NCBI RefSeq assembly: GCF_900105765.1
Contig: NZ_FNTX01000002.1
Location: 620,001-684,000 of the forward strand
DNA: 64,000 nucleotides
DNA from: Ruania alba
Lineage (GTDB): Bacteria; Actinomycetota; Actinomycetes; Actinomycetales; Beutenbergiaceae
Direction: 5' to 3'
How positions within the stretch are numbered: the stretch's first letter is position 1; each line of letters starts with the position of its first letter. The position numbers and the translations under genes were made by a program. This document shows positions 7,118 to 27,777 of this stretch, piece after piece. The notes below the pieces were generated by a model. It had not been told where the DNA came from, did no database searches, and worked only from the letters and a program-made list of their open reading frames with translations.

Positions 7118-8311
7118 GTGACCATCTCACCGTCAACGGCCGAGGCGAGGGTCGCCGTCATCGGCTGCGGAGCACGCGCGGGTATCGCCGCGCACGTGGC
7201 CAGCACCGGTGTCGGCATCGTGACCGCGCTGGTCGACCCCGACCCTGCCGCCCGCGAGCGCACGGCGGCCCGCCTCGCCGAGACGCCCGCCCAGTTCGCC
7301 GGGGTCGGTGAGCTGCTGCAATCCGGCACCGACGTCACTGCCGCACTCGTCCTCACCCCGGACGACACCCACGCCGAGGTGGCGATCCCGCTGCTGGAGG
7401 CCGGCATCGCGGTCTTCTGCGAGAAGCCGATCACCATCACGACGGCGGACGCGGACCGGATGCTGGCCGCCGCCGCCCGGAGCGGCACACCGCTGTACGT
7501 GGGCCACAACATGCGGCACATGAGCGTGGTCACGACGATGCGCGACATCATCAGCCGCGGGGAGATCGGCGCAGTGAAGGCCATCTGGTGCCGCCACTTC
7601 GTGGGCCACGGCGGCGACTACTACTTCAAGGACTGGCACGCCGAGCGCGCCCGCGGCACCGGGCTGCTGCTGCAGAAGGGCGCGCACGACATCGACGTGA
7701 TCCACTGGCTCGCCGGTGCCTCCACCACCCGGGTGACCGGGATGGGCGGGCTCACCGTGTACGACCAGGTCACCGATCGCCGAGACAACTCCGACCGCAC
7801 CATGGCCGACTGGTTCTCCGAGGACAACTGGCCGCCGCTGGCCCAGCGGGAGCTGAACCCGGTGATCGACGTGGAGGACCTGTCGATGGTGCAGATGCAG
7901 CTCGAGGGCGGGATCTTCGCCTCGTACCAGCAGTGCCATTACACCCCGGACTACTGGCGCAACTACACGGTGATCGGCACCGAGGGCCGGTTGGAGAACT
8001 TCGGCGATTCTGCCGGTGGCGTCGTGCGCGTGTGGAACCGCCGCTCCGGATATCGCGCCGAGGGCGATGCCGAGTACCCGATCGTCGGCGACGCGGGCGG
8101 CCACGGGGATGCCGACCAACGCACGATCGCGGAGTTCCTCGACTTCGCCGCCCACGGGGGCGCCACTGCCACGTCCCCGGTGGCCGCGCGGAACGCCGTG
8201 GCCACCGCGGTGGCTGCGACCGAGTCGCTCCGCGCCGGTTCCGTCCCGCGGGACGTGCCACCCCTGGATCCGGCCATCGCCTCCTGCTTCGACGGAAAGG
8301 CCACCTCGTGA
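7118..8311 (+). CDS. Gfo/Idh/MocA family oxidoreductase (first of three)
   Basis: A 397-aa NAD(P)-dependent sugar oxidoreductase. The Rossmann motif VAVIGCGARAG lies at the N-terminus and the conserved cofactor/substrate motif CEKPITIT about 105 residues in. The C-terminal beta-sheet domain carries GAHDIDVIHWLAG, which holds the family's catalytic histidine region. The start is GTG at 7118; the upstream 13 codons of the open frame look non-coding. It overlaps the next oxidoreductase by 4 nt (GTGA). It is the longest and most divergent of the three tandem paralogues. The substrate (an inositol, hexose or sugar acid are typical) cannot be read from sequence. Confidence 0.92.
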   Translation: MTISPSTAEARVAVIGCGARAGIAAHVASTGVGIVTALVDPDPAARERTAARLAETPAQFAGVGELLQSGTDVTAALVLTPDDTHAEVAIPLLEAGIAVFCEKPITITTADADRMLAAAARSGTPLYVGHNMRHMSVVTTMRDIISRGEIGAVKAIWCRHFVGHGGDYYFKDWHAERARGTGLLLQKGAHDIDVIHWLAGASTTRVTGMGGLTVYDQVTDRRDNSDRTMADWFSEDNWPPLAQRELNPVIDVEDLSMVQMQLEGGIFASYQQCHYTPDYWRNYTVIGTEGRLENFGDSAGGVVRVWNRRSGYRAEGDAEYPIVGDAGGHGDADQRTIAEFLDFAAHGGATATSPVAARNAVATAVAATESLRAGSVPRDVPPLDPAIASCFDGKATS

Positions 8312-9303
8312 ACCACCCCGACCCGCTGCGCGTGGGCCTGATCGGCGCCGGCGGTATCGCCGGCGTGCACGCCCCCGCATGGCGCAGCCTCGGCGCCGAG
8401 CTGGTGGTGCACTCCCTGCACGGAGCGACTGAGCTCGCAGACCGGTACGGCGCTGCCACCGCCGATTCCCTCGACGATCTGCTCGCGCGGGTGGACGTGG
8501 TGGGCATCCTCACCCCCACCGCCACCCACGCCGAGATCGCCCTGGCCGCGATCGCCGCAGGCAAGCACGTGGTCTGCGAGAAGCCGCTGGCCCGCACCGC
8601 CGATCAGGCGCAGCAGATCGTCGACGCCGCCGAGCATGCCGGTGTGCGGCTGTTCCCGGCGCACGTAGTGCGGTACTTCCCCGCCTACGCCGCGGCCCAT
8701 GCGTCCGTGACGGCGGGTCGGATCGGGCAGCTGGCGGTGAGCCGATTCCGCCGCGCGAGCGCGGCACCTGCCTCGCCGTGGTTCTTCGACGAGGCCGCCT
8801 CGGGTGGGATCGTGATGGATCAGATGATCCACGATCTCGATCAGGCGGTCTGGTTCGCCGGCACAGTCACCCGGGTCTTTGCCCGCTCGGTCACGCGTAC
8901 CGACGACGGCGTCCGCACCGCGAGCGCGACCGTCACCCTCACGCATGGTTCCGGTGCGATCAGCCATGTGCACGGGGTGTGGGGGCATGCGCACCTGCCG
9001 TTCTCCTCCTCGTTCGAGATCGCCGGCAGTGACGGTGTGCTCCGGCACGACTCGGCCCGCGAGGATGCCGTGCGGCTGCACCTGCCGCCGACTCCGGGGG
9101 GCGGGTATCTGCCGGAGGTGGATGTGACGGACAGCCCGTACACCGCGGAGATCGTGGATTTCGCGGCGGCGCTGCGGGAGGGCCGGGAGGCGACGGTGAC
9201 CGGTGCGGACGGAGTGCAGGCCGTCCGGTTGGCGGAGGCGGCGAACGAGTCGATCCGCACCGGCGCAGTGGTCGAGATCGAGACGCAGGAGGCCCACCGA
9301 TGA
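8308..9303 (+). CDS. Gfo/Idh/MocA family oxidoreductase (second of three)
   Basis: A 331-aa enzyme of the same superfamily, starting at a GTG that overlaps the previous stop. It has the N-terminal dinucleotide-binding motif VGLIGAGGIAG and the CEKPLART motif near residue 90. A DQMIHDLDQAVWF segment near 170 holds the catalytic histidine. Its stop overlaps the next start by 4 nt, so all three oxidoreductases should be made from one message in fixed order. Sequence is clearly different from both neighbours, which argues for a separate reaction and not a recent duplication. Confidence 0.92.
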   Translation: MNHPDPLRVGLIGAGGIAGVHAPAWRSLGAELVVHSLHGATELADRYGAATADSLDDLLARVDVVGILTPTATHAEIALAAIAAGKHVVCEKPLARTADQAQQIVDAAEHAGVRLFPAHVVRYFPAYAAAHASVTAGRIGQLAVSRFRRASAAPASPWFFDEAASGGIVMDQMIHDLDQAVWFAGTVTRVFARSVTRTDDGVRTASATVTLTHGSGAISHVHGVWGHAHLPFSSSFEIAGSDGVLRHDSAREDAVRLHLPPTPGGGYLPEVDVTDSPYTAEIVDFAAALREGREATVTGADGVQAVRLAEAANESIRTGAVVEIETQEAHR

Positions 9304-10301
9304 CGCTCACCGTGGGACTCCTCTCCTTCGCCCACCCGCACGTCTACGGTTACGCTGCCGCGCTCGCCGATCAGGGCGTGCGGGTGATCGGCACCGACAC
9401 CGGCACGCCGGACCCGGGCACCGTGCGAGGTGCGGACCTGGCCGCGCAGCTCGGGATCACCTACGCCGAGGACGTGGCGAGCGTGCTGGCCGAGGCGCCG
9501 GACGCCGTCGTGATCTGCTCGGAGAACTCACGCCATCGCGAGCTCACCGAACAGGCCCTGGCAGCCGGAGTGCATGTGCTGTGCGAGAAGCCGCTGGCCA
9601 CCTCCGACGAGGACGCGGCGGCGATGGTGGCCGCGGCCGAGCGGGCCGGGCGGATCCTGATGACGGCCTACCCGGTGCGGTTCGCACCGGCGTTCGCCGA
9701 CCTGGTGGCGCGGGCGCGGGCGGGGCAGCTCGGGCAGATCCTGGCGGTCCACGGCACGAACAACGGGAAGATGCCCCGGCCCAGCGAACGGTCCTGGTTC
9801 ACCGACCCGGCCCGGTCCGGTGGTGGGGCGCTGATGGACCACGTGGTGCACCTGGCCGACCTGCTGGACGAGCTGCTCGGCGAACCGGCCGAGAACGTGC
9901 ACGCGGTGACCAACCAGATCCTGCACGCCGACGCCGGGGTGGAGACCGGTGGGGTGGTGTCGGTGGCCTACCCCAGCGGGGTGATCGCGCAGATCGACTG
10001 TTCCTGGTCGGTGCCGGACTCGGCACCCACCTGGGGTGGTCTCACGCTTGAGGTGCACGGCACGCGAGGCTCGATGCGGATCGACCCGTTCGCCGAGCAC
10101 GTGCACGGGTATGACGCCAGCGGAGCCGTATGGCAGCCGTATGGGACCGACTTGGACGCGCGGATGATCGCGACGTTCCTGGACGCGGTGCGCAGCGGGA
10201 CCCGGCCCCAGCCGGACGGCGGGGTCGGGGCTCGAACGCTCGCGATCGTGACGGCGGCGCAGCGGTCGGTCGCGTCCGGACGCCCCGAAACCACCCTTTG
10301 A
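9300..10301 (+). CDS. Gfo/Idh/MocA family oxidoreductase (third of three)
   Basis: A 333-aa Gfo/Idh/MocA protein beginning at the ATG of an ATGA overlap. The Rossmann motif is unusual: the N-terminus reads VGLLSFAHPHVYGYAAAL, with the usual G-x-G-x-x-G loop replaced by SFAHPH, as in a subgroup of the family. CEKPLATS near residue 95 and ALMDHVVHLADLLDELLG near 175 are intact. The altered loop may change cofactor use. It ends the operon; two hairpins at 10331-10351 and 10376-10397 follow. Confidence 0.88.
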   Translation: MTLTVGLLSFAHPHVYGYAAALADQGVRVIGTDTGTPDPGTVRGADLAAQLGITYAEDVASVLAEAPDAVVICSENSRHRELTEQALAAGVHVLCEKPLATSDEDAAAMVAAAERAGRILMTAYPVRFAPAFADLVARARAGQLGQILAVHGTNNGKMPRPSERSWFTDPARSGGGALMDHVVHLADLLDELLGEPAENVHAVTNQILHADAGVETGGVVSVAYPSGVIAQIDCSWSVPDSAPTWGGLTLEVHGTRGSMRIDPFAEHVHGYDASGAVWQPYGTDLDARMIATFLDAVRSGTRPQPDGGVGARTLAIVTAAQRSVASGRPETTL

Positions 10302-10397: not shown

Positions 10398-11699
10398 TCA
10401 CCAGCCGTCGAGATCAAGCTGGCGAGCCTGGTTCTCCACATCACGGTCATAGTTCGCTGCGGCCTCCTCCGCGCTCCGAATCCCGGAACCCACCTCGACC
10501 GTGATGTTGGCCAGATTGGGGCCCTTGATCGGGGAGAGAAACTCCAGCGCAGGGGCCGTGTTGCCCTCATCGACGTACGCCTGGACGTCCTGCAGCAACG
10601 GGGTGACGTCGTCAGGCAGCTCGCAGGAGTTGGCATACGGTCCGCTCGGCGCCCCGGTTTCGTTGACGATGTCGCACGCGTCGGAGGAGTTGAGGAAGGT
10701 CAGCAACTGTAGAGCAGCCGCACGCTCCTCCCCCTCCGCGGTGGCCGCCACATAGGTCGCATCCGGCTGCCAGATCGTCGCCGACGTGTGCTGCGCACTG
10801 TCAGCCGGGATGGCCATGAACCGCAGATCCTCGACGGCGTCCGGTGAGTTGGCCGTGATGGTGTCCAGGACCGTGGTCAGGATCGGATAGTGAGCACCGG
10901 TGCCGTCAGCCACCATCATGGCGCCATCTTCGAACGTGGCCGAGGGGAAGTCGACGTTGAAGTAGCCCGCCTCGTATGCCTCCTGGAGATGCCGGAATCC
11001 GGCGAGGGCGGGCTCTTCGGCGTAGAACCTGGAGTGCGCGGTGTACTCCTGTGCCCACTCCGAATCCTGCGCGTGGACATTCGCGAAATCGCCGAGGACG
11101 AACAGCTGGCTGGTCCACGGGTCGGCGTAAGTCTGGATGATCGGGACATACCCAGCAGCGGCGATCTGCTCGTTGTTCGCCATGAAGGCGTCCCACGACT
11201 GCGGTACCTCCAGGCCCAGCTCGTCGTAGACCGGCTGGCTGTAGACGATGCCACCGGCGAGGGAGGTGCCGAACGGGGTTCCGTAAACACCACTCTCGGT
11301 ACTGACAACGGATCGGAAATCCTCGGTCAGATTGTCGATCCAGGCTTCCTCGGACAGGTCGACCAGCGTGGCGTCCGGGTTGAGCGCCTGCAGCAGCGAA
11401 CCTGAGTTGTAGGTGAACACTTCGGCCATCTCCCCGGTGGCGAGGCGGGTCTTGACGACGTTGACCCCGTCGTCGCCGCTGGGCCGGGTGTCATGGTTGA
11501 CGACGATCCCGGAGTGCGTCGCCTCGAACTCCTCGATCAGGGCGGCGGCCATCTCCGACGTCTGCTCGTCACTGCTGGTCAGCCAGGTGATCTCGATGGT
11601 GCCGTCCTCACCTTCATCGGAGGAACAGGCGGCCACGGCAGCCAGGCTGACGGCACCTATGAGAGCCACGAGGGGTTTCGGCGTGAGGATCCTGGTCAT
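10398..11699 (-). CDS. Carbohydrate ABC transporter substrate-binding lipoprotein
   Basis: A 433-aa family-1 extracellular solute-binding protein. A lipoprotein signal ends at the lipobox AVAAC (Cys near residue 25), so it should be anchored outside the membrane. The mature part has the periplasmic-binding-protein layout, with typical TRLATGEMAEVF and GVYGTPFGTS segments. It is the last gene of a leftward operon: the upstream sulfatase stop overlaps its ATG by 4 nt. No permease or ATPase follows; the next gene is convergent. The partner permease must lie elsewhere, and the permease at the left edge of the window is one untested candidate. Coupling to a sulfatase suggests uptake of desulfated sugar fragments. 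Confidence 0.9.
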   Translation of the reverse strand: MTRILTPKPLVALIGAVSLAAVAACSSDEGEDGTIEITWLTSSDEQTSEMAAALIEEFEATHSGIVVNHDTRPSGDDGVNVVKTRLATGEMAEVFTYNSGSLLQALNPDATLVDLSEEAWIDNLTEDFRSVVSTESGVYGTPFGTSLAGGIVYSQPVYDELGLEVPQSWDAFMANNEQIAAAGYVPIIQTYADPWTSQLFVLGDFANVHAQDSEWAQEYTAHSRFYAEEPALAGFRHLQEAYEAGYFNVDFPSATFEDGAMMVADGTGAHYPILTTVLDTITANSPDAVEDLRFMAIPADSAQHTSATIWQPDATYVAATAEGEERAAALQLLTFLNSSDACDIVNETGAPSGPYANSCELPDDVTPLLQDVQAYVDEGNTAPALEFLSPIKGPNLANITVEVGSGIRSAEEAAANYDRDVENQARQLDLDGW

Positions 11700-13165
11700 C
11701 GGTGACCCTTCCTGTCGATAGCGGAGGACGGCGGGCCGTCGTGGTGCCGGGGCTGAGAGTCGTGCGCGCTTGCCGCGAGCTTGCGTCCGTCGAGCAGTTG
11801 CGAGCGAACCCAGTCGTTGTCGACGGTGCGGTCCCCGTCGGCCAGCAAGTCGTCGTACAGCTGACGCCGCAGACCGGCCAGGACGGTGCTGACGGAACTG
11901 TCACCGATACGGTTGTCGAGCTCGTCGGGATCGCCGTGAAGGTCGTACAGCTCGTCGACATCCGTCGGATTCCAGATGTACTTCCACCGTCGGTCCCGGA
12001 TCATCCGCTGGACGTAGAGGCCGAACTGCTGCCCGTTGTAGGTGCTCACCACGTGATCTCGCGCGGAGAGAGCGTCGTTGACGTGCCATCGGCCGCCGTC
12101 GGGTTCGACCAGAGGTGAGCCATGGGTGGGCGTACCGTCATCGCCGAGCGCGCGATAGAGCAATGTGGCCAGATCGAGCGTGTTGTGCACGAACGCGTCG
12201 CTGATCTCCCCGGCGGGCACTGTGCCCGGCCAGGAGAGCACGAGTGGAACTCGAACGACGTCGTCGTACATCACGTGATGCTTGTCGATCATCCGATGGG
12301 AGCCGCACATGTCTCCGTGGTCACTGGTGTAGATCACGAGCGTGTCCTCGAGCTGACCCGCCTCGTCGATCGTGGTCATGATGCGGCCGATGGCGGCATC
12401 CATCTGGGTGATGCTCGCGTAATAACGCGACACCATCGGCGCCCAGTCCTCCCAGGTAAAGTCCTCCACGCCCCAGCTGTGGAGCTGCTGACGCTGGATG
12501 TAGGGCTTGCCGGCAAACGACTCCTCAAAGCTCCCCCACGGCGGGATCTCACGAGCCGGGTACTGATCGGCGAACTCGGCCGTCGGCTGGCACGGCAGAT
12601 GCGGCTCGACGAAGTCCACCCGGACGTGCCACGGCTGGTGAGTACTGCGGGTGATGAACTCCGCGGCACGCTCTGCCGACCAGTGCGTCCTGCTGTCCTC
12701 GGTCGGCACGGGGTCGATACCGCCGAACCACCCGCCGTCGACGTGCGCCTCGGGGTGACGATGCGCCCGCCACTGGTCATAGGCCCCCAGCGGGACGTAC
12801 TCGTCGTACCCGAAGTCCCGCGGATCGGCATCGGGGTGCACGTGCCATTTTCCGATGTACCTGCTCCGGTATCCACGGGATGCGAGGAGGCGGGTCCAGG
12901 TCGTCGCGTCAGGGTCGAGCACCGTGCCCTTCGGGCCGAGGTCGTAGTTCCACAGACCGCCGGCGCACTCCGGCCGAAGTCCGGTCAGGAGCGACTGTCG
13001 GGCCGGCACGCACAGAGGAATCGGGGTAAAGGCACTGTCGAACCGGGTGCCGGATCGGGCCAGAGCATCGAGGGTGGGAGTGCGCACCGGGCAGCGTTGC
13101 GCGTACCCAGCGCAGTCCCACCGGTGCTGGTCAGAGACGATGAGCAGGATGTTCGGGGAGGTCAC
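11696..13165 (-). CDS. Sulfatase (type I, formylglycine-dependent)
   Basis: A 489-aa arylsulfatase-superfamily enzyme that hydrolyses sulfate esters. The metal-binding start is SDQH (D12, Q13) and the active-site signature is C52-V-P-A-R, whose cysteine is converted to formylglycine in this family. A DHGD metal motif lies near residue 300 and a conserved GKWH near 105. The GTG at 13165 is chosen because homology begins there (TSPNILLIVSD); the frame is open for 122 more codons upstream but that part is non-coding in character. No signal peptide is seen, so the enzyme appears cytoplasmic. It is translationally coupled to the binding-protein gene downstream and follows the Tat-exported proteins. 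The sugar substrate is unknown. Confidence 0.92.
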   Translation of the reverse strand: MTSPNILLIVSDQHRWDCAGYAQRCPVRTPTLDALARSGTRFDSAFTPIPLCVPARQSLLTGLRPECAGGLWNYDLGPKGTVLDPDATTWTRLLASRGYRSRYIGKWHVHPDADPRDFGYDEYVPLGAYDQWRAHRHPEAHVDGGWFGGIDPVPTEDSRTHWSAERAAEFITRSTHQPWHVRVDFVEPHLPCQPTAEFADQYPAREIPPWGSFEESFAGKPYIQRQQLHSWGVEDFTWEDWAPMVSRYYASITQMDAAIGRIMTTIDEAGQLEDTLVIYTSDHGDMCGSHRMIDKHHVMYDDVVRVPLVLSWPGTVPAGEISDAFVHNTLDLATLLYRALGDDGTPTHGSPLVEPDGGRWHVNDALSARDHVVSTYNGQQFGLYVQRMIRDRRWKYIWNPTDVDELYDLHGDPDELDNRIGDSSVSTVLAGLRRQLYDDLLADGDRTVDNDWVRSQLLDGRKLAASAHDSQPRHHDGPPSSAIDRKGHR

Positions 13166-13230: not shown

Positions 13231-14364
13231 CTAGTGGCGACGGGCGGCCGCGCCCCGAGCCATCTCGCGGAAGATCCGCATCTGGCTGGCTCCCTCCGGC
13301 GGCAGCTCGCCGAGTGTGTCCGGAGTCGAGTGGTCCGGGTACGGGTGGAACGGCCAAAGGATGTACCGGTCGGCCGCGCCACCGTGATCGACGTAGGTCG
13401 CAATGCCCTCCAGGACCCGCCGCCGGAATGCGTTGTTGCTCTGCCGTCCGGCGCGTCCGTCGGTGCACTGGAGTCCGAAGGTGACGCCGAGCCCCTTGAT
13501 GAACCGTTCGACCTCGACCATCCGGTCCCACGTCATCGGCCCGCTCGGGCGTTCGATCTCCAGACGCGGGTGCTCGAACGGTTTGTCGAAGTGGATGAAG
13601 TCCAACTCGTGCCCGCTGGACCGCAGCTCACTCTGCAGCGAGGTGAGGACCTCTCGCCAGGGTGGATAGATGCCCGGCTTGTCGTTCAGGGGGTAGATCA
13701 CACCGATCTGAACATCCGGGAACTCACCTCGGACCTGGTCGTTGAACTCCACCACGTCCTGGATGCGGCGCTCCATCGAATAGCCCAGGAATCGGCCCGG
13801 ACCGGGCTTGCTGAGCACACTCTGCAGCAAGATGTTGGTGAGGTTGAACCCAGCCGCCCGGAGCTGGCGCAGGTTGTTGATGGTCGCGGTGAAGTCCGGC
13901 GGGCCCTCGGGGATCTCGCCGGTCTCCTGAAACTTGTGCCACCACCAGGTGGTTGCCTGGGTGACGTTGAAGGCGAAGTTCATGTCGGCGTGGGCGGACG
14001 CCATTGTGTCGAGCAGTTCCGGTTCGTACTTCACCACGTCCGCATAGTTGTCGCCGGCGCCGACCTGACCGAAGCTGAACGTATGCATGGCACGGCGCGC
14101 GTGTCGCCAGGTGTCGAGGTTGTCGTAGCGGGACTCGAGGTCCGGTGGGGCTCCTCGACCGCCCTGACCCAGATTGTTGTCCTGGTACCAGAACTCCGGC
14201 AGTCGCGCCGCCGCGTCAGCCGCTGTGCCGTCAACCGCGGCCGCTGGTGTCGCACTCAGGGAACCGGCGGCCACGGCACCGGCCACGGCGGCACCACCCG
14301 TCGCCAGAACCTGACGGCGGGTTGGTCCCTCGTCGTTGATCATCGCTCGTGACGTCGTCGTCAT
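13231..14364 (-). CDS. Tat-exported protein of unknown function (copy 1)
   Basis: A 377-aa protein I cannot assign to a known family. A twin-arginine signal (R16-R17 in TRRQVLATGG, then a hydrophobic Ala-rich stretch to about residue 43) predicts folded export. The mature part starts with PEFWYQDNNLGQGG and is rich in aromatic residues. Segments shared with the neighbouring copy include QATTWWW, RRIQDVVEFNDQVR, IHFDKPFEHPRLEI, GLQCTDGR and ILWPFHPYPDHS. Alternating strand/helix character and buried acidic and His residues would fit a TIM-barrel carbohydrate-active enzyme, but this is inference. A GAGGAGAAGAG ribosome site precedes the ATG. It lies between its paralogue and a sulfatase in one leftward operon. 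Confidence 0.85.
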   Translation of the reverse strand: MTTTSRAMINDEGPTRRQVLATGGAAVAGAVAAGSLSATPAAAVDGTAADAAARLPEFWYQDNNLGQGGRGAPPDLESRYDNLDTWRHARRAMHTFSFGQVGAGDNYADVVKYEPELLDTMASAHADMNFAFNVTQATTWWWHKFQETGEIPEGPPDFTATINNLRQLRAAGFNLTNILLQSVLSKPGPGRFLGYSMERRIQDVVEFNDQVRGEFPDVQIGVIYPLNDKPGIYPPWREVLTSLQSELRSSGHELDFIHFDKPFEHPRLEIERPSGPMTWDRMVEVERFIKGLGVTFGLQCTDGRAGRQSNNAFRRRVLEGIATYVDHGGAADRYILWPFHPYPDHSTPDTLGELPPEGASQMRIFREMARGAAARRH

Positions 14365-14385
14365 CTCTTCTCCTCGGGTTGGGGT

Positions 14386-15501
14386 TTATCGCGTCTGGTT
14401 GGATCGGGGCGCGTGTTGCTCGGCGGCGCCGGCGGCGAGCTCGCGGAAGAGACGCAGCTGGCTGGCGCCTTCGGGCGGGAGAGGCCCGAGGTCGTCGGGC
14501 AGTGAGTGGTCCGGGTAGGGGTGGAACGGCCAGAGGATGTACCGGTCGGCTGCGCCTCCGTGGGCGATATACGTCGCGAGCCCGTCAAGCACCAGCTCAC
14601 GGAACTCGTTGTTGCTCGCTCGGCCGCCGCGCCCGTCGGTGCATTGGAGCCCGAAGGTGACGCCCAGGCTCTTCACGAACTGTTCGACCTCGACCATCCG
14701 GTCCCACGTCATCGGCCCGCTCGAGTCTTCGATCTCCAGGCGAGGGTGCTCGAAGGGCTTGTCGAAGTGGATGAAGTCCAGCTCGTGCCCACTGGACTGC
14801 AGCTCGCTCTGCAGCACGGTGAGCGCCTCTCGCCAGGGCAGATAGATGCCCGGCTTGTTGGTGAGCGGGTAGATCACGCCAATACGAACGCCCGGGAACT
14901 CGGCGCGGACCTGATCGTTGAACTCCACCACGTCCTGGATACGGCGCTCCGTCGAGTAGCCCAGGAATCCACCCGGTCCAGGTTTGGTGAGCACACTCTG
15001 CAACATGATGTCGGTGATGTGGAGGCCGGCATCTGCCAGGTCATGCAGTTCATTGATCGTTCTGGTGAAGTTCGCAGGCCCGGACGGAATCTCTCCCGTT
15101 CGGCGGTAGTACCCCCACCACCACGTGGTGGCCTGCGTCACGTTGTAGGCGACATGGTGATCAGCGTGTGCGGCAGCCATCGAGGCAAGGAATGCCGGAT
15201 CGTCCCGGAGCCCTTGTTTGACGAGTGCGTTCTGGCCCAGGACGAAGGTGTGCATCACGGCTCGGGCCTTGTCCCAGGCGGCCAGGTCGTCGTAGCGAGA
15301 CCGGAAATCGGGCGGAACTCCGCCGCCCTGACCGAGGTTGTTGTCCTGATACCAAAACTCCGGCACGTTGTCGGTCTGCGAGGCTGCGCGTGCAGGCGTC
15401 GCCACGGACGGGGGTGCCGCGGCCATACCGACAGCCGCCGCCCCTATCGTTGCGCTGGCGGTCGCAATGACCTGCCGCCTGCTGATGGCATGAGTGTTCA
15501 T
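14386..15501 (-). CDS. Tat-exported protein of unknown function (copy 2)
   Basis: A 371-aa paralogue of the next gene, about 70% identical over the mature region by eye and higher in the C-terminal two thirds. The start at 15501 is fixed by an AGGAGG ribosome site at 15508-15513. The Tat motif is SRRQVIATAS, and a cleavage site is likely near residue 40 (PARAAS). The two copies differ most just after HTF (residues 100-120), where the downstream copy carries a short insertion, and in the C-terminal tail. Conservation of the aromatic and acidic motifs in both copies argues that both are functional. It is the first gene of the leftward sulfatase operon. Function unknown; an extracellular hydrolase or lyase on a sulfated glycan is the leading guess. 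Confidence 0.85.
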   Translation of the reverse strand: MNTHAISRRQVIATASATIGAAAVGMAAAPPSVATPARAASQTDNVPEFWYQDNNLGQGGGVPPDFRSRYDDLAAWDKARAVMHTFVLGQNALVKQGLRDDPAFLASMAAAHADHHVAYNVTQATTWWWGYYRRTGEIPSGPANFTRTINELHDLADAGLHITDIMLQSVLTKPGPGGFLGYSTERRIQDVVEFNDQVRAEFPGVRIGVIYPLTNKPGIYLPWREALTVLQSELQSSGHELDFIHFDKPFEHPRLEIEDSSGPMTWDRMVEVEQFVKSLGVTFGLQCTDGRGGRASNNEFRELVLDGLATYIAHGGAADRYILWPFHPYPDHSLPDDLGPLPPEGASQLRLFRELAAGAAEQHAPRSNQTR

Positions 15502-16201
15502 TCGATTCCTCCTGTGTCGTCGTTGATCAGGCAGGTGCCGTGCTAGGTGAGCACGGGGTCGTGGCACACGACGGCTGGGGCCTCAGGAGATCCGATGATC
15601 CGCGGCCCGCCGTGGTCACCGATCGGCCGACGGCGTCCCTCACCCCTCCCCAGCAGCGTGCCCAGGACGTCATGCCTCAGACAACCGTATCGATACGTTC
15701 CAATCTTGTTGCATGAAACCCGTTCGCACTTCTTTGCACGACCAGGCTGTAGCCGCACAGTTCGGCGCTTTGATCCGCCCAATCGGCTGCAACCAACGTC
15801 GAACCAGTGGCAATGAAAGTACACTGATACGATACAACCCGCAACCATCTATCGAGCGAGGTGGTGCTCGCCAGAGATCGACTCCACGCGGAAGGTCCGG
15901 TGCGTCGGTCCCATCGCTCCTGTGGAATGTGGGTAGCACGGTAGGCACGGAGGTGCTCGCCAGACGGCACGGCGGAGTCGGCAGTCAGGAAGGTTCCGAC
16001 GAACCACAGGCACTCCTCTGCGTCAAAGTTCTTTGATACGATTCATGACCAGAGAAGAAGCCAGTGGAGAAGGCCCAGTATTCTGCGGTTGACGTTCTGT
16101 GATCAGAGCGACCAGCCCTCTTGTTGCGGCCACGTGGGCTCTCAATCGTGCCAATGTAGGTACGGGCTGAGCCGATCAGCTCGGAAGGACGAGGAAAGGG
16201 T
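15502..16201. promoter_or_regulatory. Divergent control region of the sulfatase locus with repeated CG-centred near-palindromes
   Basis: A 700-bp region of lower GC without a convincing gene. It separates the Tat-protein operon from the LacI gene. Related 12-mers occur at 15686-15697 (CGTATCGATACG, a perfect palindrome), 15825-15836 (TGATACGATACA) and 16034-16045 (TGATACGATTCA). A weaker match overlaps the start codon of the Tat gene at 15498-15509. A similar site, TGAATCGAATCA, lies before the first rightward sulfatase. Central-CG near-palindromes of this kind are typical LacI-family operators. A 7-bp hairpin (CCGTGCT/AGCACGG) at 15538-15556 lies in the presumed leader of the leftward operon. 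Confidence 0.6.
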
Positions 16202-17254
16202 GTGCAGCGAGCCGTGAACCTTCCCACCGGGCCGAATCACCGTCCGACCAGTCGCGACGTTGCACGCCTGGCGCGCGTGTCCGTGAGCACTGTCTCGAAC
16301 GTGCTGAACAGACCCGATCTGGTGACCGATAGCACCCGTGAACGTGTCGAGCACGCGATGCAAGAACTCCGCTTCGTCCGAAACCGCTCGGCTCGAGAAC
16401 TCCGGATGGGGAAGGGGCGGACCATCGGTCTCCTCGTCTACGACATCTCCGGCCCCTATTCCATCGCGGTGGCTCGTGCCGCGGAGCGCCACTTGACCGA
16501 GGCCGGATACATGGTCATGTTGTGCAGTTCTGACGGGCAGCCCGACCGCGAACGGCGCCAGTTGTTGGAGCTCGAGGAGCACGGCGTCAGCGGAATCGTG
16601 ATCGGCCCCACCAGCCACGACCTCGCCACCGTCGACGAGATCCGTGAGCGCGGAACGCCGGTCGTGCTGCTGGACCGCGCGAGTCCGGACGGTGAGCACT
16701 GCTCGGTCGCGGTCGACGACGTCAAGGGCGCAGAGCAGGCCGGACGGCACCTCCTTGCGCTGGGTCACCGTCGGATCGGTCTGGTGAACGGGCCGCACGA
16801 CCGTCGGCAATGCCTCGACCGTCGCGGCGGACTGCACCAGGCTGTCGAGGAAGCAGGGCTCAAGGTCGACGCGGCTGTTGTCGAGGTGGTCGTGCCGGAG
16901 CCGGACGCCGCTGCCGGGGAGGGGGCAGTCGGGGAGATCATGAAGGGACGTCGGCCACCGACGGCCGTCATGTGCATCAACGACCGGCTCGCGCTTGGTG
17001 TCCTCCGCGGATTGCAGGAGCGAGGCCTTCGGTCGCCGGAGGATGTCGCCGTCGTGGGGTATGACGACCTCGAGTTCGCGACCATGCTGTCACCTCGCCT
17101 GACCTCCATCCGTCGCCCGAAAGAGGAGTACGGCCGTCGAGTCGCCGAGCTGCTCCTCGACGAGATCGAGAACGCGGCCACGCACGTGCACCAGCAGATG
17201 GTCTTCCAGACCGGACTGGCCGTCCGGGAGTCGAGCGACCTCCCTCGCCCCTAG
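16202..17254 (+). CDS. LacI-family transcriptional regulator
   Basis: A 350-aa repressor-type regulator. The N-terminal helix-turn-helix and hinge are clear at residues 15-65 (SRDVARLARVSVSTVSNVLNRP and the following helix). The rest is a periplasmic-binding-like effector domain ending in DLEFATMLSPRLTSIRRP. The start is GTG at 16202 behind an AGGAAAGG ribosome site. It is immediately upstream of, and co-directional with, two sulfatase genes, and divergent from the Tat-protein/sulfatase operon. Local control of both arms through the near-palindromes at 15686-16045 and 17294 is likely. The effector is probably a sugar released from the target glycan. Confidence 0.94.
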   Translation: MQRAVNLPTGPNHRPTSRDVARLARVSVSTVSNVLNRPDLVTDSTRERVEHAMQELRFVRNRSARELRMGKGRTIGLLVYDISGPYSIAVARAAERHLTEAGYMVMLCSSDGQPDRERRQLLELEEHGVSGIVIGPTSHDLATVDEIRERGTPVVLLDRASPDGEHCSVAVDDVKGAEQAGRHLLALGHRRIGLVNGPHDRRQCLDRRGGLHQAVEEAGLKVDAAVVEVVVPEPDAAAGEGAVGEIMKGRRPPTAVMCINDRLALGVLRGLQERGLRSPEDVAVVGYDDLEFATMLSPRLTSIRRPKEEYGRRVAELLLDEIENAATHVHQQMVFQTGLAVRESSDLPRP

Positions 17255-17320: not shown

Positions 17321-18760
17321 ATGTCCAGGCCCAATGTCGTGTTCATCATGAGCGACGATCATGCGGCACACGCGATCTCTGCCTATGGCAGTCGCATCAA
17401 CCAGACCCCGCACCTGGATCGGCTCGCTCAGGACGGGATGCGCTTCGATGCCGCCTTCTGCACGAACTCGATCTGCACCCCGAGCCGTGCAGCCGTCCTG
17501 ACCGGCCAGCACAGCCATGTCAACGGTGTGCGAAGTCAAGGGGACCGGTTGGACGGACGGCGTCAGACCTTCCCGCAACTGTTGCAGGGGTCCGACTATC
17601 AGACGGCACTGTTCGGCAAGTGGCACCTGGGGCACGGAGGGAACGCCGATCCGACCGGGTTCGACACGTGGAGCATCCTTCCCGGCCAAGGGGACTACGT
17701 CGACCCGGTGCTGATCGAGAACGGGACCGAGCGCCAGCACACCGGCTACGTGACCGACCTGCTCACCGACATGAGCCTGGAGTGGCTCGACCAGCGAGAT
17801 CAGGATCGACCCTTCCTGCTCTGCCTGCACCACAAGGCACCACACCGCTGGTGGGTGCCCGCCGATCGGCACGCCGACCTGTACTCCGAGGATCGAGAAG
17901 AACCGGAGACGCTGGACGACGACTACAGCACACGCGCCAGCGCCGCCCGCCGGGCACGGATGCGCATCGATCGGGACCTGACGGCGAAGGATGTCAAGGC
18001 CGAACCACCTGCCGACCTCGACGGTGAGGACCGCCGTCGGTGGTTCTACCAGCGGTACATCAAGGACTACTTGCGGTGCGTGGCAGCGGTGGACGACAGC
18101 GTGGGACGGGTGCTCGACTACCTCGACGCCCATGACCTGACCGAGGACACGATCGTCGTCTACACCTCCGATCAGGGCTTCTTCCTGGGCGATCACGGCT
18201 GGTATGACAAGCGATTCATGTACGACGAGTCGCTGCGGATCCCGCTGCTGATGCGCTATCCGGCCCGTATCGCCGCGGGCAGCACCAGCGACGCGCTCGT
18301 GCAGAACATCGACTTCGCGCCCACGTTCGCCGAGCTCGCCGGCCTGCAGCCCGTCGAGCCGATGAACGGTGCGAGCCTGACCCCGATCTTCGACCAGGCT
18401 GAGCCTGCCGACTGGCGCGCAGCCGCGTACTACCGCTACTGGGAGCACGACTCCATCCCGCACCGCGTCGCGGCCCATTGCGGCATCCGCACCCGGACGC
18501 ACAAGCTCGTCCACTACTACGGCCGGGGACTCGGGGTTCCGCGAGCATCGGACACCCCCACCGACCCCGAGTGGGAACTCTTCGACCTGATCGCCGATCC
18601 GCACGAGCTGCACAACCTCTACGACCGACCTGGCCATGAGGAACTCACCGAGGAGCTCACGCGCACCCTGAGCGAGGTCCGTGCGGAGATCGGCGACGAC
18701 AGCCTGACCCGCCCGATCCCCGATGCCGCCGACACCTCACCTCTGGAGGCCCAGCGATGA
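17321..18760 (+). CDS. Sulfatase (type I, formylglycine-dependent)
   Basis: A 479-aa arylsulfatase-superfamily enzyme. Metal ligands D12-D13 (MSDDHA) precede the active-site signature C52-T-P-S-R, and GKWHLG near residue 100 and a DQGFFLGDHGWYDKR segment near 290 complete the family core. No signal peptide is present. An AGAGAGG ribosome site precedes the ATG. It overlaps the next sulfatase gene by 4 nt, so the two are coupled. The layout resembles sulfatases acting on algal or host glycans, but the exact subfamily and linkage cannot be told from sequence alone. Confidence 0.93.
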   Translation: MSRPNVVFIMSDDHAAHAISAYGSRINQTPHLDRLAQDGMRFDAAFCTNSICTPSRAAVLTGQHSHVNGVRSQGDRLDGRRQTFPQLLQGSDYQTALFGKWHLGHGGNADPTGFDTWSILPGQGDYVDPVLIENGTERQHTGYVTDLLTDMSLEWLDQRDQDRPFLLCLHHKAPHRWWVPADRHADLYSEDREEPETLDDDYSTRASAARRARMRIDRDLTAKDVKAEPPADLDGEDRRRWFYQRYIKDYLRCVAAVDDSVGRVLDYLDAHDLTEDTIVVYTSDQGFFLGDHGWYDKRFMYDESLRIPLLMRYPARIAAGSTSDALVQNIDFAPTFAELAGLQPVEPMNGASLTPIFDQAEPADWRAAAYYRYWEHDSIPHRVAAHCGIRTRTHKLVHYYGRGLGVPRASDTPTDPEWELFDLIADPHELHNLYDRPGHEELTEELTRTLSEVRAEIGDDSLTRPIPDAADTSPLEAQR

Positions 18761-20115
18761 CGCGTCCCAACATTCTTCTCATCACCGCCGACGACCTGGC
18801 GGGTGATACTCCGGGTTCGTTCGGTGGTCGGCCTGATGTGATGCCGGTCCTGGATCGGCTGGCAGCTGAGGGGATGCGTTTCGGTCGGGCGCATGTGCCG
18901 GCGCCGGTGTGTCAGCCGAGTCGATCGGCGTTGATGACGGGGCGGTGGCCGCACCGCAATGGTGCGGAGGGATTCGAGCCGATCGATGAGGGGGTGCCGT
19001 TGCTGACCGAGGCGATCGGCGCCGTCGGGTATCGCAGCGGGATCCTCGGCAAGGTGAACCACCTGCAGCCGGAGGACCGGTTCGGGTGGTCGTTCGTGCG
19101 GCAGCAGGCCGAACTGGGCATGGGACGAAACCCGCAGGCGTATGGCGACGCGACGGCGGAGTTCATCGCGGCGTCCGAGGGAGAGTCATGGTTCCTGATG
19201 GCGAACGCGCACGACCCACATCGCCCGTTCCACGGCAGTGCGGCTGAACGGGAGGGATACACCGAGGAGCAGCAGGCCTCCTACCCGGACCCGAGCCGCG
19301 TGTTCACGGCGCAGGAGGCGGATCCGCCCGGCTTCCTGCCGGATCTGCCGCAGGTCCGCCAGGAGTATGCCCAGTATCTGAGCTCGGCGCGCCGATGTGA
19401 CGATGTGATCGCGGCGATCCTGGCCGCCCTGGAGGACTCGGGGCAGGCGGAGCGCACGGTGGTGGTGTTCTTCTCCGACAACGGCATGGCGTTCCCGTTC
19501 GCGAAGGCGAACTGTTATCTGGCGGGAACGCGCACGCCGCTGGTGGTGCGCTGGCCGGACCAGGTGCCCCCGGGCGGGGTGAACGACGACCATTTCGTCT
19601 CCACCCTGGACCTGTTCGCCACCTTCTGCGAGATGGCCGGGGCCGAGATTCCCGACGGCGTAGACGGACGCAGCGTGGTCGGGCTGCTGCAGGGGCGTGG
19701 GGAACCGGGGCGTGACCATGTGGTCACCGTGTTCCACGAGACGAACGCGGGGAACAGGTATGAGATGCGGTCGGTGCAGGACGGCGAGTGGGGCTATATC
19801 TGGAACGCCTGGTCCGATGGGGAGACCGCGTATCGGGCGGAGAACATGGCTGGTCTGACGTGGCCGGCGATGACGGACGCGGCCGAGACCGACACGGCCC
19901 TGAAGGAGCGCACCGACTTCTACCAGCGCCGTGCCCCCGAGGAGCTGTATCGGCTCACCACCGACCCCCACGCGCTGCACAACCTCGTCGAGTCCCACGG
20001 CCGCACGGGCGACCCCGACTCCGCACAGGCACTCGCCCGCGCACGGGCCCACCTCCGGGATTGGATGGACGCGACCGAGGATCCGCTGCGGGAGCGATAT
20101 CCCGCGTCCAGGTGA
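18757..20115 (+). CDS. Sulfatase (N-sulfoglucosamine sulfohydrolase-like)
   Basis: A 452-aa sulfatase with D12-D13 (TADDLAGDTPG) and the signature C52-Q-P-S-R. It is shorter than the preceding enzyme and has the GKVNHLQPEDRFGW and NAHDPHRPFHG segments typical of the group that includes heparan N-sulfatases and related exo-sulfatases. This subgroup placement is tentative. The gene starts in the ATGA overlap with the upstream sulfatase, has no signal peptide, and ends the rightward arm of the locus. All three sulfatases have the cysteine-type active site, so the cell needs a formylglycine-generating enzyme, which is not encoded in this window. Confidence 0.9.
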   Translation: MTRPNILLITADDLAGDTPGSFGGRPDVMPVLDRLAAEGMRFGRAHVPAPVCQPSRSALMTGRWPHRNGAEGFEPIDEGVPLLTEAIGAVGYRSGILGKVNHLQPEDRFGWSFVRQQAELGMGRNPQAYGDATAEFIAASEGESWFLMANAHDPHRPFHGSAAEREGYTEEQQASYPDPSRVFTAQEADPPGFLPDLPQVRQEYAQYLSSARRCDDVIAAILAALEDSGQAERTVVVFFSDNGMAFPFAKANCYLAGTRTPLVVRWPDQVPPGGVNDDHFVSTLDLFATFCEMAGAEIPDGVDGRSVVGLLQGRGEPGRDHVVTVFHETNAGNRYEMRSVQDGEWGYIWNAWSDGETAYRAENMAGLTWPAMTDAAETDTALKERTDFYQRRAPEELYRLTTDPHALHNLVESHGRTGDPDSAQALARARAHLRDWMDATEDPLRERYPASR

Positions 20116-25440: not shown

Positions 25441-27777
25441 TCAACCACCGTAGTGCTGCACCAGCTCGGCCAGGCGCTCCTGGGTGAGCTCCTCTGACAT
25501 CCGCATCACCGGCACCTTCTTGACCGGCATCGACCCGAGGAAGGCCGCCATCGCCTGGTCCGGGCTGTCCGGGCCGAACATGGCGCCGAAGTCACCCATC
25601 GCGGCGAGCAGTTCGGGACCGGCCTGCGGGTGCTCCAGCCATTCACTGATGGTGGCGTCCTCGCTGAGTGGCCGGCGCAGCGCCGGTGCCACCAGTTCGG
25701 TGACCTGCTCCAGCGGGAGGTCGCGCGAGGAGGCCCCGACGGCCACGCGCAGCGGCCCGGGCTCCACGGCCCACCCGTGGGCGTGCACGTCCCAGTGGCT
25801 CAGCTCGCGCCGGGTGACGGTGAGCTCGATCCGCTGCTCCTGACCCGGCGCGAGGTACACACGGGCGAAACCCTTGAGCTCGCGCGGCGGGCGCGCCACG
25901 GCCGATCCGGGCCGGCCGAGGTACAGCTGCGGCACCGCCACGCCCGCACGGTCGCCCGTATTGCGTACGGTCACGCCCGCGCGCACGACGACGTCCCCCG
26001 CCCCGGTCTGGTCGGTCACCTCAGCTACGTCCACAGTCAGGTCGGCGTAGTCGAAGGTGGTGTAGGTCAGGCCGTGCCCGAACGGGTAGGAGACCTCCCG
26101 CCCGGGGGCGTCCAGGCCGCGGTAGCCGATGAAGATGCCCTCGCCGTAGCGGACCGTGCCGTTCTCGCCGGGGAAGTTCAGCTGCGCGGGCACATCGGCC
26201 AGGCGTACCGGGATGGACTCGGCGAGCCGGCCGGACGGAGCAGCATCCCCGAGCAGCAGGTCCGCCGCGGCGCTGCCGCCGGCCTGTCCGCCCAGCCACA
26301 GCTCGAGCAGAGCGTCCACGCGGTGCTCCCACTCGGAGACGGCCACCGCGGATCCATTCGCGAGCAGCACCACGGTGCGCTGAGCGACCGCGGAGATCTC
26401 ACGCAGCAGGTCCAGGTGGCTGGCCGGGATGTCCAAGTGCTCGCGGTCGTATCCCTCGGACTCGTCGGCCGCAGGTAACCCGAGCACCAGGACGGCCGTC
26501 TTGCCGGTGGCGGCGAAGACGGCCTCGGCTCGCAGGGCGGCATCGTCGCGGGTCTCACTCTCGGCCGCGCCCCCGGGCTTCTCGGCCTCGGCCAGCCGGT
26601 ACCCGGCCGCGAACGGCAGGTCCAGGCCACGCTCGGCGAAGGCTCCGAGGATGGTCTCCAGCCGGGTCGGGTTCACCTGCGAGGATCCGGCGCCCTGGTA
26701 GCGGGGGGTGCGGGCGAGCTCCCCGATCAGTACCGCAGACCCTGCCAGACCGTCTGCGGCCAACGGCAGGACGCCGTCGGGGTTCTTGAGCAGCACGGCC
26801 GAGCGGGTGGCGACCTCACGGGCCAGGGCGTGGTGCGCCGTCAGGTCGGCCGTGCCCGGCTCGGCGAGGGCCGGCTGGGCCCTGGCGACCATGGTGAGCA
26901 CGCGGGTGACGGCGGTGTCGAGGTCGGCCTCGGCGAGGCGCCCCTCCCGGACGGCGGTCACGATCGCGGCGTCGTTGATGCCGTGGGAGGAGGGCATCTC
27001 CAGGTCGAGACCGGCGGCGACCCCGGCGGCGCGGTCGTCCACGGCGCCCCAGTCGGAGACCACGAGGCCCTCGAAGCCCCACTCGTCGCGGAGCACCTCG
27101 GTGAGCAGCCACGGGTCCTGCGAGGCGTAGGTTCCGTTGACCTTGTTGTAGGCACACATCACGGTCCACGGCTGGGCGCGGGTGACGACCTTCTCGAAGG
27201 CCGGCAGGTAGATCTCCCGGAGGGTGCGCTCGTCGATCTCCGCGGAGATCCGCATCCGGTCGGTCTCCTGGTTGTTCGCGGCGAAGTGCTTCAGCGAGGT
27301 GCCCACGCCGCGGGACTGGATGCCCTGGACCAGCTCGGTGGCAAGCTCACCAGCGAGGTACGGGTCTTCGGAGACGTACTCGAAGTTGCGCCCGCACAAG
27401 GGGCTGCGCTTCATGTTCACACCGGGGCCGAGCAGCACGGCGACGTCGTTCGCGCGCGTCTCGGCGCCGAGCGCCGCGCCCACGTGGTGCAGCAGGTCGC
27501 GGTCCCAGGTGGAGCCGAGGCCGGCGGCGGAGGGGAAGCAGGTCGCAGGCACCGAATCGTTCAGGCCGACGTGGTCGGTGGCCCCAGCCTGCTTGCGCAG
27601 CCCGTGCGGACCGTCGGTGACCATCACGGCGGGGATGCCGAGACGCTCGATCGCCTGGGTATGCCAGAAGTCCTGCCCGGAGCACAGCGAGGCCTTCTCC
27701 TCCAGGGTGAGCTCGCCGAGCAGACGGGGGATGTCCGCCTCGGCGAGGGTGGGCGAGGCCTGGGTCGGGGTGCTCAT
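25441..27777 (-). CDS. Glycoside hydrolase family 3 beta-glucosidase
   Basis: A 778-aa exo-acting glycosidase. The N-terminal TIM barrel carries KHFAANNQETDR (substrate-binding Lys-His) and the nucleophile aspartate in VVSDWGAV near residue 245. The alpha/beta sandwich domain follows, and a C-terminal fibronectin-III-like domain spans roughly residues 570-690. No signal peptide is seen, so it should act on imported oligosaccharides in the cytoplasm. An AGGAG ribosome site precedes the ATG. It is divergent from a TetR regulator, and the ACCGTACGGT palindrome lies between them. Beta-glucosidase activity is likely, though xylosidase or related activities occur in GH3. Confidence 0.93.
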   Translation of the reverse strand: MSTPTQASPTLAEADIPRLLGELTLEEKASLCSGQDFWHTQAIERLGIPAVMVTDGPHGLRKQAGATDHVGLNDSVPATCFPSAAGLGSTWDRDLLHHVGAALGAETRANDVAVLLGPGVNMKRSPLCGRNFEYVSEDPYLAGELATELVQGIQSRGVGTSLKHFAANNQETDRMRISAEIDERTLREIYLPAFEKVVTRAQPWTVMCAYNKVNGTYASQDPWLLTEVLRDEWGFEGLVVSDWGAVDDRAAGVAAGLDLEMPSSHGINDAAIVTAVREGRLAEADLDTAVTRVLTMVARAQPALAEPGTADLTAHHALAREVATRSAVLLKNPDGVLPLAADGLAGSAVLIGELARTPRYQGAGSSQVNPTRLETILGAFAERGLDLPFAAGYRLAEAEKPGGAAESETRDDAALRAEAVFAATGKTAVLVLGLPAADESEGYDREHLDIPASHLDLLREISAVAQRTVVLLANGSAVAVSEWEHRVDALLELWLGGQAGGSAAADLLLGDAAPSGRLAESIPVRLADVPAQLNFPGENGTVRYGEGIFIGYRGLDAPGREVSYPFGHGLTYTTFDYADLTVDVAEVTDQTGAGDVVVRAGVTVRNTGDRAGVAVPQLYLGRPGSAVARPPRELKGFARVYLAPGQEQRIELTVTRRELSHWDVHAHGWAVEPGPLRVAVGASSRDLPLEQVTELVAPALRRPLSEDATISEWLEHPQAGPELLAAMGDFGAMFGPDSPDQAMAAFLGSMPVKKVPVMRMSEELTQERLAELVQHYGG

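Follow-up and report, generated by a model that had tools for sequence, protein, structure and literature searches.

The locus analysed here, in a window of 64,000 nucleotides (the whole stretch of DNA that was read), raises the question of what two adjacent, closely similar proteins of no named family do at the head of an operon that also encodes a sulfatase and a sugar-binding lipoprotein. The two reading frames lie on the minus strand where they had been placed, with X2, the first gene of the operon, at 14386..15501 and X1 at 13231..14364, encoding proteins of 371 (counted from the ATG at 15501) and 377 amino acids, respectively. The proteins are 67% identical over 368 positions by BLASTP and 68% by MAFFT, in agreement with the ~70% given in the preliminary description, and the four motifs named there, including QATTWWW and ILWPFHPYPDH, occur in both translations. 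Against their counterparts in a second genome of the genus (G004), X1 and X2 have dN/dS ratios of 0.12 and 0.17, indicating purifying selection. Our reading, to which we give a probability of about 45%, is that X1 and X2 are exported, glycan-active barrels that cut a sulfated, perhaps rhamnose-containing glycan at the cell surface.

No family in Pfam, NCBIfam or PHROGs matched X1 or X2 above its cut-off or with a convincing E-value (best 0.019), a phmmer search of X1 against the PDB sequences returned nothing below E 0.94, and profile searches of the PDB sequences gave E 0.018 at best. The statement that the proteins match no known family thus holds for Pfam, a search of which had been suggested and gave no confident match for either protein, and equally for NCBIfam, PHROGs and the PDB sequences. 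Judged by sequence comparison, X is a barrel family that is nameless in the libraries searched.

Both proteins begin with S/T-R-R-Q-V followed by a hydrophobic stretch, and an arginine pair with a hydrophobic stretch was seen by eye in all eight bacterial X-type proteins with an available N-terminus. Export by the Tat route, as originally described, is therefore backed by the motif in both proteins but not by the TAT profile, which scored X2 at 13 bits against a cut-off of 16.7 and did not list X1, and the X proteins are best regarded as candidate twin-arginine substrates on the strength of a leader motif seen by eye.

Leftward of X2 and X1 follow a sulfatase gene with a CVPAR motif (11696..13165, minus strand; PF00884, 1.9e-31 when first scanned as 11696-13015), whose GTG start was picked by codon score, and the gene for the sugar-binding lipoprotein of an ABC importer (SBP_bac_1; 10398..11699, minus strand; PF01547, 2.6e-18). 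The genes are separated by 21 bp, then by 65 bp, a gap that depends on the sulfatase start chosen by codon score, and finally overlap by 4 bp, so that the leftward operon led by the X genes, with its sulfatase and lipoprotein, is confirmed. Divergent from X2 is a LacI-family regulator (16202..17254, plus strand; PF00356, PF00532), with two further sulfatase genes beyond it on the plus strand (17321..18760, CTPSR motif; 18757..20115, CQPSR motif; both PF00884), and at the other end lie three plus-strand genes for Gfo/Idh/MocA oxidoreductases (7118..8311, scanned from 7079; 8308..9303; 9300..10301; all PF01408). The three window sulfatases all combine PF00884 with the C/S-x-P-x-R motif that marks S1 sulfatases, and by eye none has a leader, the proteins beginning directly at the catalytic domain, which suggests that desulfation probably takes place inside the cell after import, and not outside. 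Two other genes of the window may be recorded: a GH3-type glycosidase at 25441-27777, whose link to the X operon is not clear, and an SBP_bac_5 lipoprotein at 61854-63761, which by eye has a start similar to that of the importer proteins encoded in the X clusters (L052 408-2387, L055 3978-5861).

The window's own genome (G000; 4.83 Mb in two contigs) holds five X genes, the window pair being joined by a second tandem pair, X3 and X4 (C2:1213.6-1215.8 kb), and a single gene, X5 (C2:1207.9 kb). A profile of the window pair, run against 99 genomes including its own, matched G000, G004 and one spurious sequence, and a search of the eight genomes of the genus with X5 returned the same two genomes as true holders, along with two chance matches, placing X-type genes in 2/8 genomes of the genus. 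A draw of 396 genomes from the phylum gave six with a match (G000, G225, G468, G208, G271 and G282). The proteins of G225 and G468, two of the 39 genomes of a distant class, are 28–31% identical to X1, and the weak matches in G208 and G271 led to a remote family that is discussed below. Draws of 396 genomes from the order and 394 from the class yielded no further X relatives. The draws overlap, and five candidates per genome were scored in the large ones, so that weak relatives may be missed. Scans of genome contigs with two alignments, which extended to other phyla, found no relative either; they may leave out the window's own or very near genomes. Several matches were dropped, namely those in G074 (52 residues, outside the reading frame of a likely gene), G282 (~60 residues with a stop) and G003 and G085 (leader region only), as well as two weak ones, at E 0.42 in G003 and E 0.64 in G005, which were taken as false.

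A further relative, at 28% identity and E 2e-27, is encoded on a phage-like contig of 44.4 kb (IMG/VR, IMGVR_UViG_3300017598_000575). The protein (L061 4947-5897; 316 amino acids) has a Sec-like leader by eye, and its neighbours include one weak match to a tail tip family and one match to a tail assembly chaperone family, the latter being DUF1353 in Pfam. Two further scans returned the same contig and nothing else, whilst plasmid records held no match for X1, the G225 protein or the phage-like protein, and phage records none for the phage-like protein.

Sulfatase genes, as judged by position and the PF00884 profile, abut X in five of the six bacterial loci: the window pair, the second pair, the G004 pair, G225 (on both sides) and G468. 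Two of these five loci belong to the distant class, at the 28–31% identity given above. The nearest sulfatase to X5 is 3 kb away, and none was seen by eye beside the phage-like gene. The sulfatase next to X in G468 (L032 5386-6847), a draft genome, is split into two overlapping reading frames, which were searched apart. PF00884 matches number 57 in G000 and 32 in G004, against 5–25 in the other six genomes of the genus (ranks 1 and 2 of 8), and in the 39 genomes of the distant class G225 ranks first with 21 and G468 shares second place with 20, although these ranks are only suggestive because genome size and draft state differ and the X-bearing genomes are among the larger in their groups.

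The cluster in G004 comprises three Gfo/Idh genes, a sugar-binding lipoprotein (SBP) gene, a sulfatase, two X genes, another sulfatase, an MGH1-like glycosidase, an SBP_bac_5 importer, a GH78 gene, more sulfatases and a LacI gene, of which the Gfo/Idh, SBP and LacI genes were assigned by likeness to those of the window. A gene set of this type is divided in G000 between the window and a second cluster at C2:1.207-1.23 Mb. The sulfatases and glycosidases of the G004 cluster show no leader in the called starts, of which two are uncertain. A gene at L053 6649-8928, some 2 kb away from a different sulfatase, encodes a 759-amino acid protein that has an RR leader as judged by eye, together with a FIMAH domain and a below-cut-off match to hypothetical glycosyl hydrolase 6. 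Loci for the utilisation of sulfated methyl-pentoses in Verrucomicrobiota and Bacteroidota have been described from genomes with many sulfatases and GH78/GH106 rhamnosidases, the sulfatases lying in glycosidase contexts (PMC8857213). G000 and G004 resemble them in their sulfatase-rich genomes, their rhamnosidase and their sulfatases near glycosidases, but differ in that the cluster here is actinobacterial and combines an ABC importer with the X family. The literature searched yielded no paper describing such a system in actinobacteria and no title naming the X family.

A regulatory link between the dispersed parts of this system is suggested by an operator-like pattern, YGATACGWTNCA. The intergenic region between X2 and the LacI gene (15502..16201) holds three sites, at 15691-15702, 15825-15836 and 16034-16045, and there are no others in the window; this compares with 0.03 expected and with 0/100 shuffles having three, counts that are partly circular because the pattern was built from six sites (three from the window, two from G004 and one from the second cluster). 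The whole G000 genome contains eight sites, and none when the pattern is read backwards. Three are those before X2, one lies between the SBP_bac_5 and permease genes of an importer/GH78 operon 585 kb away, one precedes a sulfatase of the second cluster and three are elsewhere. Four sites occur in the stretch of G004 that was read, two of them preceding the importer, a third where a sulfatase gene begins and the fourth inside the MGH1-like gene, and three of the four have flanking letters in common with the window sites. The second-cluster sulfatase site and two of the G004 sites played no part in building the pattern. We infer that the LacI protein would bind these operator-like sites.

AlphaFold2 models of X1 had a pLDDT of 74 and a pTM of 0.79 from 7 rows, and 78.7 and 0.85 from 15 rows, and show eight strands alternating with helices, the (beta/alpha)8 arrangement of a TIM barrel. 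The predicted fold class is clear, whereas the matches are generic and do not single out a family: Foldseek searches against the PDB returned glycosidases, isomerases, dihydropteroate synthases and carboxyltransferases alike, with TM scores by query length of 0.36–0.53 among the matches listed (best 50 of each search), and the viral fold library gave weak barrels. The fold comparison that had been proposed as a check gives X1 a barrel such as many glycosidases have, with generic barrels among the matches listed.

A search with a barrel profile of the G271 and G208 sequences found matches in 7 of 148 genomes of the class of G208, these two included. Six of the remote barrels (G271, G208, G395, G862, G853 and G842) were taken together as the A6 family, and G797 (L051), which is broken across frames, was excluded from every alignment and residue count. 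A6 is an actinobacterial lipoprotein-like family, also a barrel without a Pfam name, and its profile matches that of nine X proteins at 99.1% (E 2e-18, 251 columns). Like X, it keeps an Asp on strand 6 and W279; unlike X, it has Glu or Asp on strand 4 and Glu on strand 5, and its members are longer, with C-terminal extensions and a lipoprotein-like leader by eye. An F5/8 type C domain (E 1.2e-9) is present in one of the six, and no sulfatases were seen near the six genes, as inspected by eye after a crude gene call.

Residues were counted in an alignment of 16 rows, made up of ten X-type proteins (the phage-like one included) and the six A6 proteins, with strand ends taken from the secondary structure given with the model. 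The MAFFT alignments and hhalign agree on strands 4, 5 and 6 and disagree on strand 3, where a comparison of Asn in X with Asp/Glu in the relatives was dropped because the columns shift once the phage-like protein is added. Asp260 on strand 6 is Asp in 16/16 sequences. On strand 4, all six A6 proteins have Glu or Asp and all ten X proteins have Gln. On strand 5, Glu is found throughout A6 and Asp in six X proteins (the three other G000 copies, G225, G468 and the phage-like protein), the window pair having Tyr and the G004 pair Thr. Of the A6 carboxylates on strands 4, 5 and 6, the strand-6 Asp is thus the only one that all X members share, and Asp302 on strand 7 is found only in seven proteins of this genus. 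Twelve residues are identical in 10/10 X proteins (W59, Y60, N64, D75, Q181, S182, K186, R200, D203, H258, D260 and W279), and these fixed positions, none of them glycine or proline, together with the dN/dS of 0.12–0.17 between G000 and G004, argue against mere decay. Invariant residues are not significantly more frequent at the barrel mouth than at its bottom (9/40 against 6/40, Fisher p 0.57), the mouth set having excluded H258, D260 and K186 owing to the strand ends as placed by the model.

These columns were compared with those of named barrel families. Glycosidases of clan GH-A carry Glu where strands 4 and 7 end, a feature that X lacks, with Gln in the strand-4 column of all ten X proteins and a strand-7 column (D302) that is Asp in seven and Ser in three. 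Xylose-isomerase-like barrels (AP_endonuc_2) have the metal ligands Glu, Asp, His and Glu on strands 5–8; at the inspected columns X has Cys or Leu on strand 7 and Trp, Thr, Met or Ser on strand 8, and there was no PF01261 match. The top PDB fold match of the better X1 model was the GH18 chitinase 7xmh (E 9.5e-7, 9% identity), but the GH18 signature DxxDxDxE on strand 4 is present in 0/16 barrel sequences. The alpha-galactosaminidase-type barrels of GH114/GH135/GH166/GH191 (9euz, 2aam) were, besides a beta-amylase, the top-ranked named glycosidase family in the first fold search, with 9euz matching the first X1 model at E 4.3e-6, 14% identity and TM 0.50 by target length. They were not among the matches listed (best 50) with the better model, and Pfam scans of X1, X2 and a set of relatives brought up no Glyco_hydro_114 match at E 1. 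Their catalytic pair is an Asp nucleophile and a Glu acid/base (PMC12054363), as opposed to the Gln of the X strand-4 column.

This carboxylate loss is at its most advanced in the window pair, which disfavours a hydrolase of the ordinary two-acid type and points to either a rebuilt site or a role in binding. The main rival to our reading, and the less probable of the two, is that X1 and X2 are descendants of hydrolases whose present role is confined to binding the sulfated glycan outside the cell, so as to capture it or pass it on to the importer. Such a role would suit the disappearance of carboxylates from strands 4 and 5 while other polar residues stayed fixed, and a sugar-binding lipoprotein is encoded in the same operon; H258 and D260, however, are unchanged in 10/10 X proteins, including the phage-like one, and two released Tat proteins without a lipid anchor would be an odd means of holding a glycan at the cell. 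That X has no glycan activity and sits in the cluster for another reason, such as other surface or sulfate-related metabolism, appears quite improbable. Barrels do carry out many chemistries and no profile names the family, but the sulfatase neighbourhood recurs in distant genomes and the operator-like sites are shared.

Cleavage by elimination, either by a uronate lyase or by an eliminase whose substrate is a sugar that the neighbouring Gfo/Idh/MocA enzymes have oxidised beforehand, is in our view decidedly improbable. The conserved positions offer Asn, Gln, Lys, His and Tyr rather than two acids, three Gfo/Idh/MocA genes adjoin the operon, and the barrel of a C-glucosyl deglycosidase (8qrz, 14% identity) was the eighth fold match of the better model. 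The oxidoreductases, by contrast, have no leader by eye whilst X has one, and the metal ligands of isomerase-type barrels are missing at the inspected columns. Moreover, GH88/GH105 enzymes serve to clear unsaturated uronates, and PF07470, which represents them, was not found in G000 or G004, the two X-bearing genomes of the genus, although it is present in 3/8 genomes of the genus, which weakens the lyase reading. Ulvan was considered as the exact substrate and, GH88/105 being missing, is not claimed. Of the hydrolase or lyase posed in the preliminary description, an ordinary two-acid hydrolase is weakened by the loss of two of three strand-end carboxylates in the window pair, and a lyase by the missing GH88/GH105 matches. 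Its wider proposal of a new carbohydrate-active enzyme family, in which X is a candidate enzyme, is partly supported, by the nameless family, the export-type leader, the predicted barrel, the sulfatase neighbours in 5/6 loci and the operator-like sites shared with the importer/GH78 operon.

The tandem pairs are mosaic in sequence. Nucleotide identity within a pair is 64% in the N-half and 82% in the C-half for X1/X2, 68% and 83% for X3/X4, and 69% and 99% for the G004 pair, in which nine consecutive bins of 20 codon columns are 100% identical. Trees of the C-half prefer grouping by locus, with two alternatives rejected (AU 4e-49 and 7e-18). For the N-half, a tree with all pairs by locus is rejected (AU 4e-52) and, of the three trees tried, the one arranged by gene position is preferred, X1 grouping with the second G004 copy and X2 with the first; a tree with only the second pair (X3/X4) by locus is not rejected (0.156). 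The N-half of X4 was at first read as being of the X2 type, which the trees do not settle (p 0.375, against 0.668 for a place beside X5), whilst an exchange of X3 and X4 is rejected (0.005). It is nevertheless likely, from these sequences, that the same two N-half types occur in all three pairs. The homogenisation of C-halves within each pair, but not of N-halves, points to repeated gene conversion of the C-half. The G004 tandem genes (L008 344-2610) contain a recent conversion tract, with ~180 codon columns 100% identical between diverged ends. Near-common C-terminal half-barrels with more differing N-halves suggest that X1 and X2 would be two specificities of one activity. A more detailed history is that the X lineage shed its carboxylates stepwise (strand 4 from Glu/Asp to Gln; strand 5 from Glu to Asp to Tyr/Thr) and cuts sulfated glycans with Gln181, Ser182, Lys186, His258 and Asp260, its tandem pairs having the C-half recopied by gene conversion whilst the N-half diverged; in this full form we hold it to be rather improbable.

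Under our preferred reading, that of exported glycan-active barrels, X1 and X2 would leave the cell by the Tat route and act on a sulfated glycan at the cell surface, where they would most likely cut the polymer, hydrolysis being more probable than elimination. The candidate site is Asp260 on strand 6 with His258, Lys186, Gln181 and, in this genus only, Asp302. The ABC importer would take up the pieces, and sulfatases, an alpha-L-rhamnosidase (GH78) and another glycosidase would finish the breakdown inside the cell, the GH78 gene being the one pointer to rhamnose in the glycan. Algal carbon turnover is limited by the enzymes that break open sulfated polysaccharides, and the X family, a nameless barrel that is sulfatase-adjacent in two distant lineages and present on a phage-like contig, offers a concrete target. 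Glycan cleavage by X in the absence of the customary pair of acids would constitute an additional mechanism, and a purely binding role would make X an example of a hydrolase turned glycan-capture protein.
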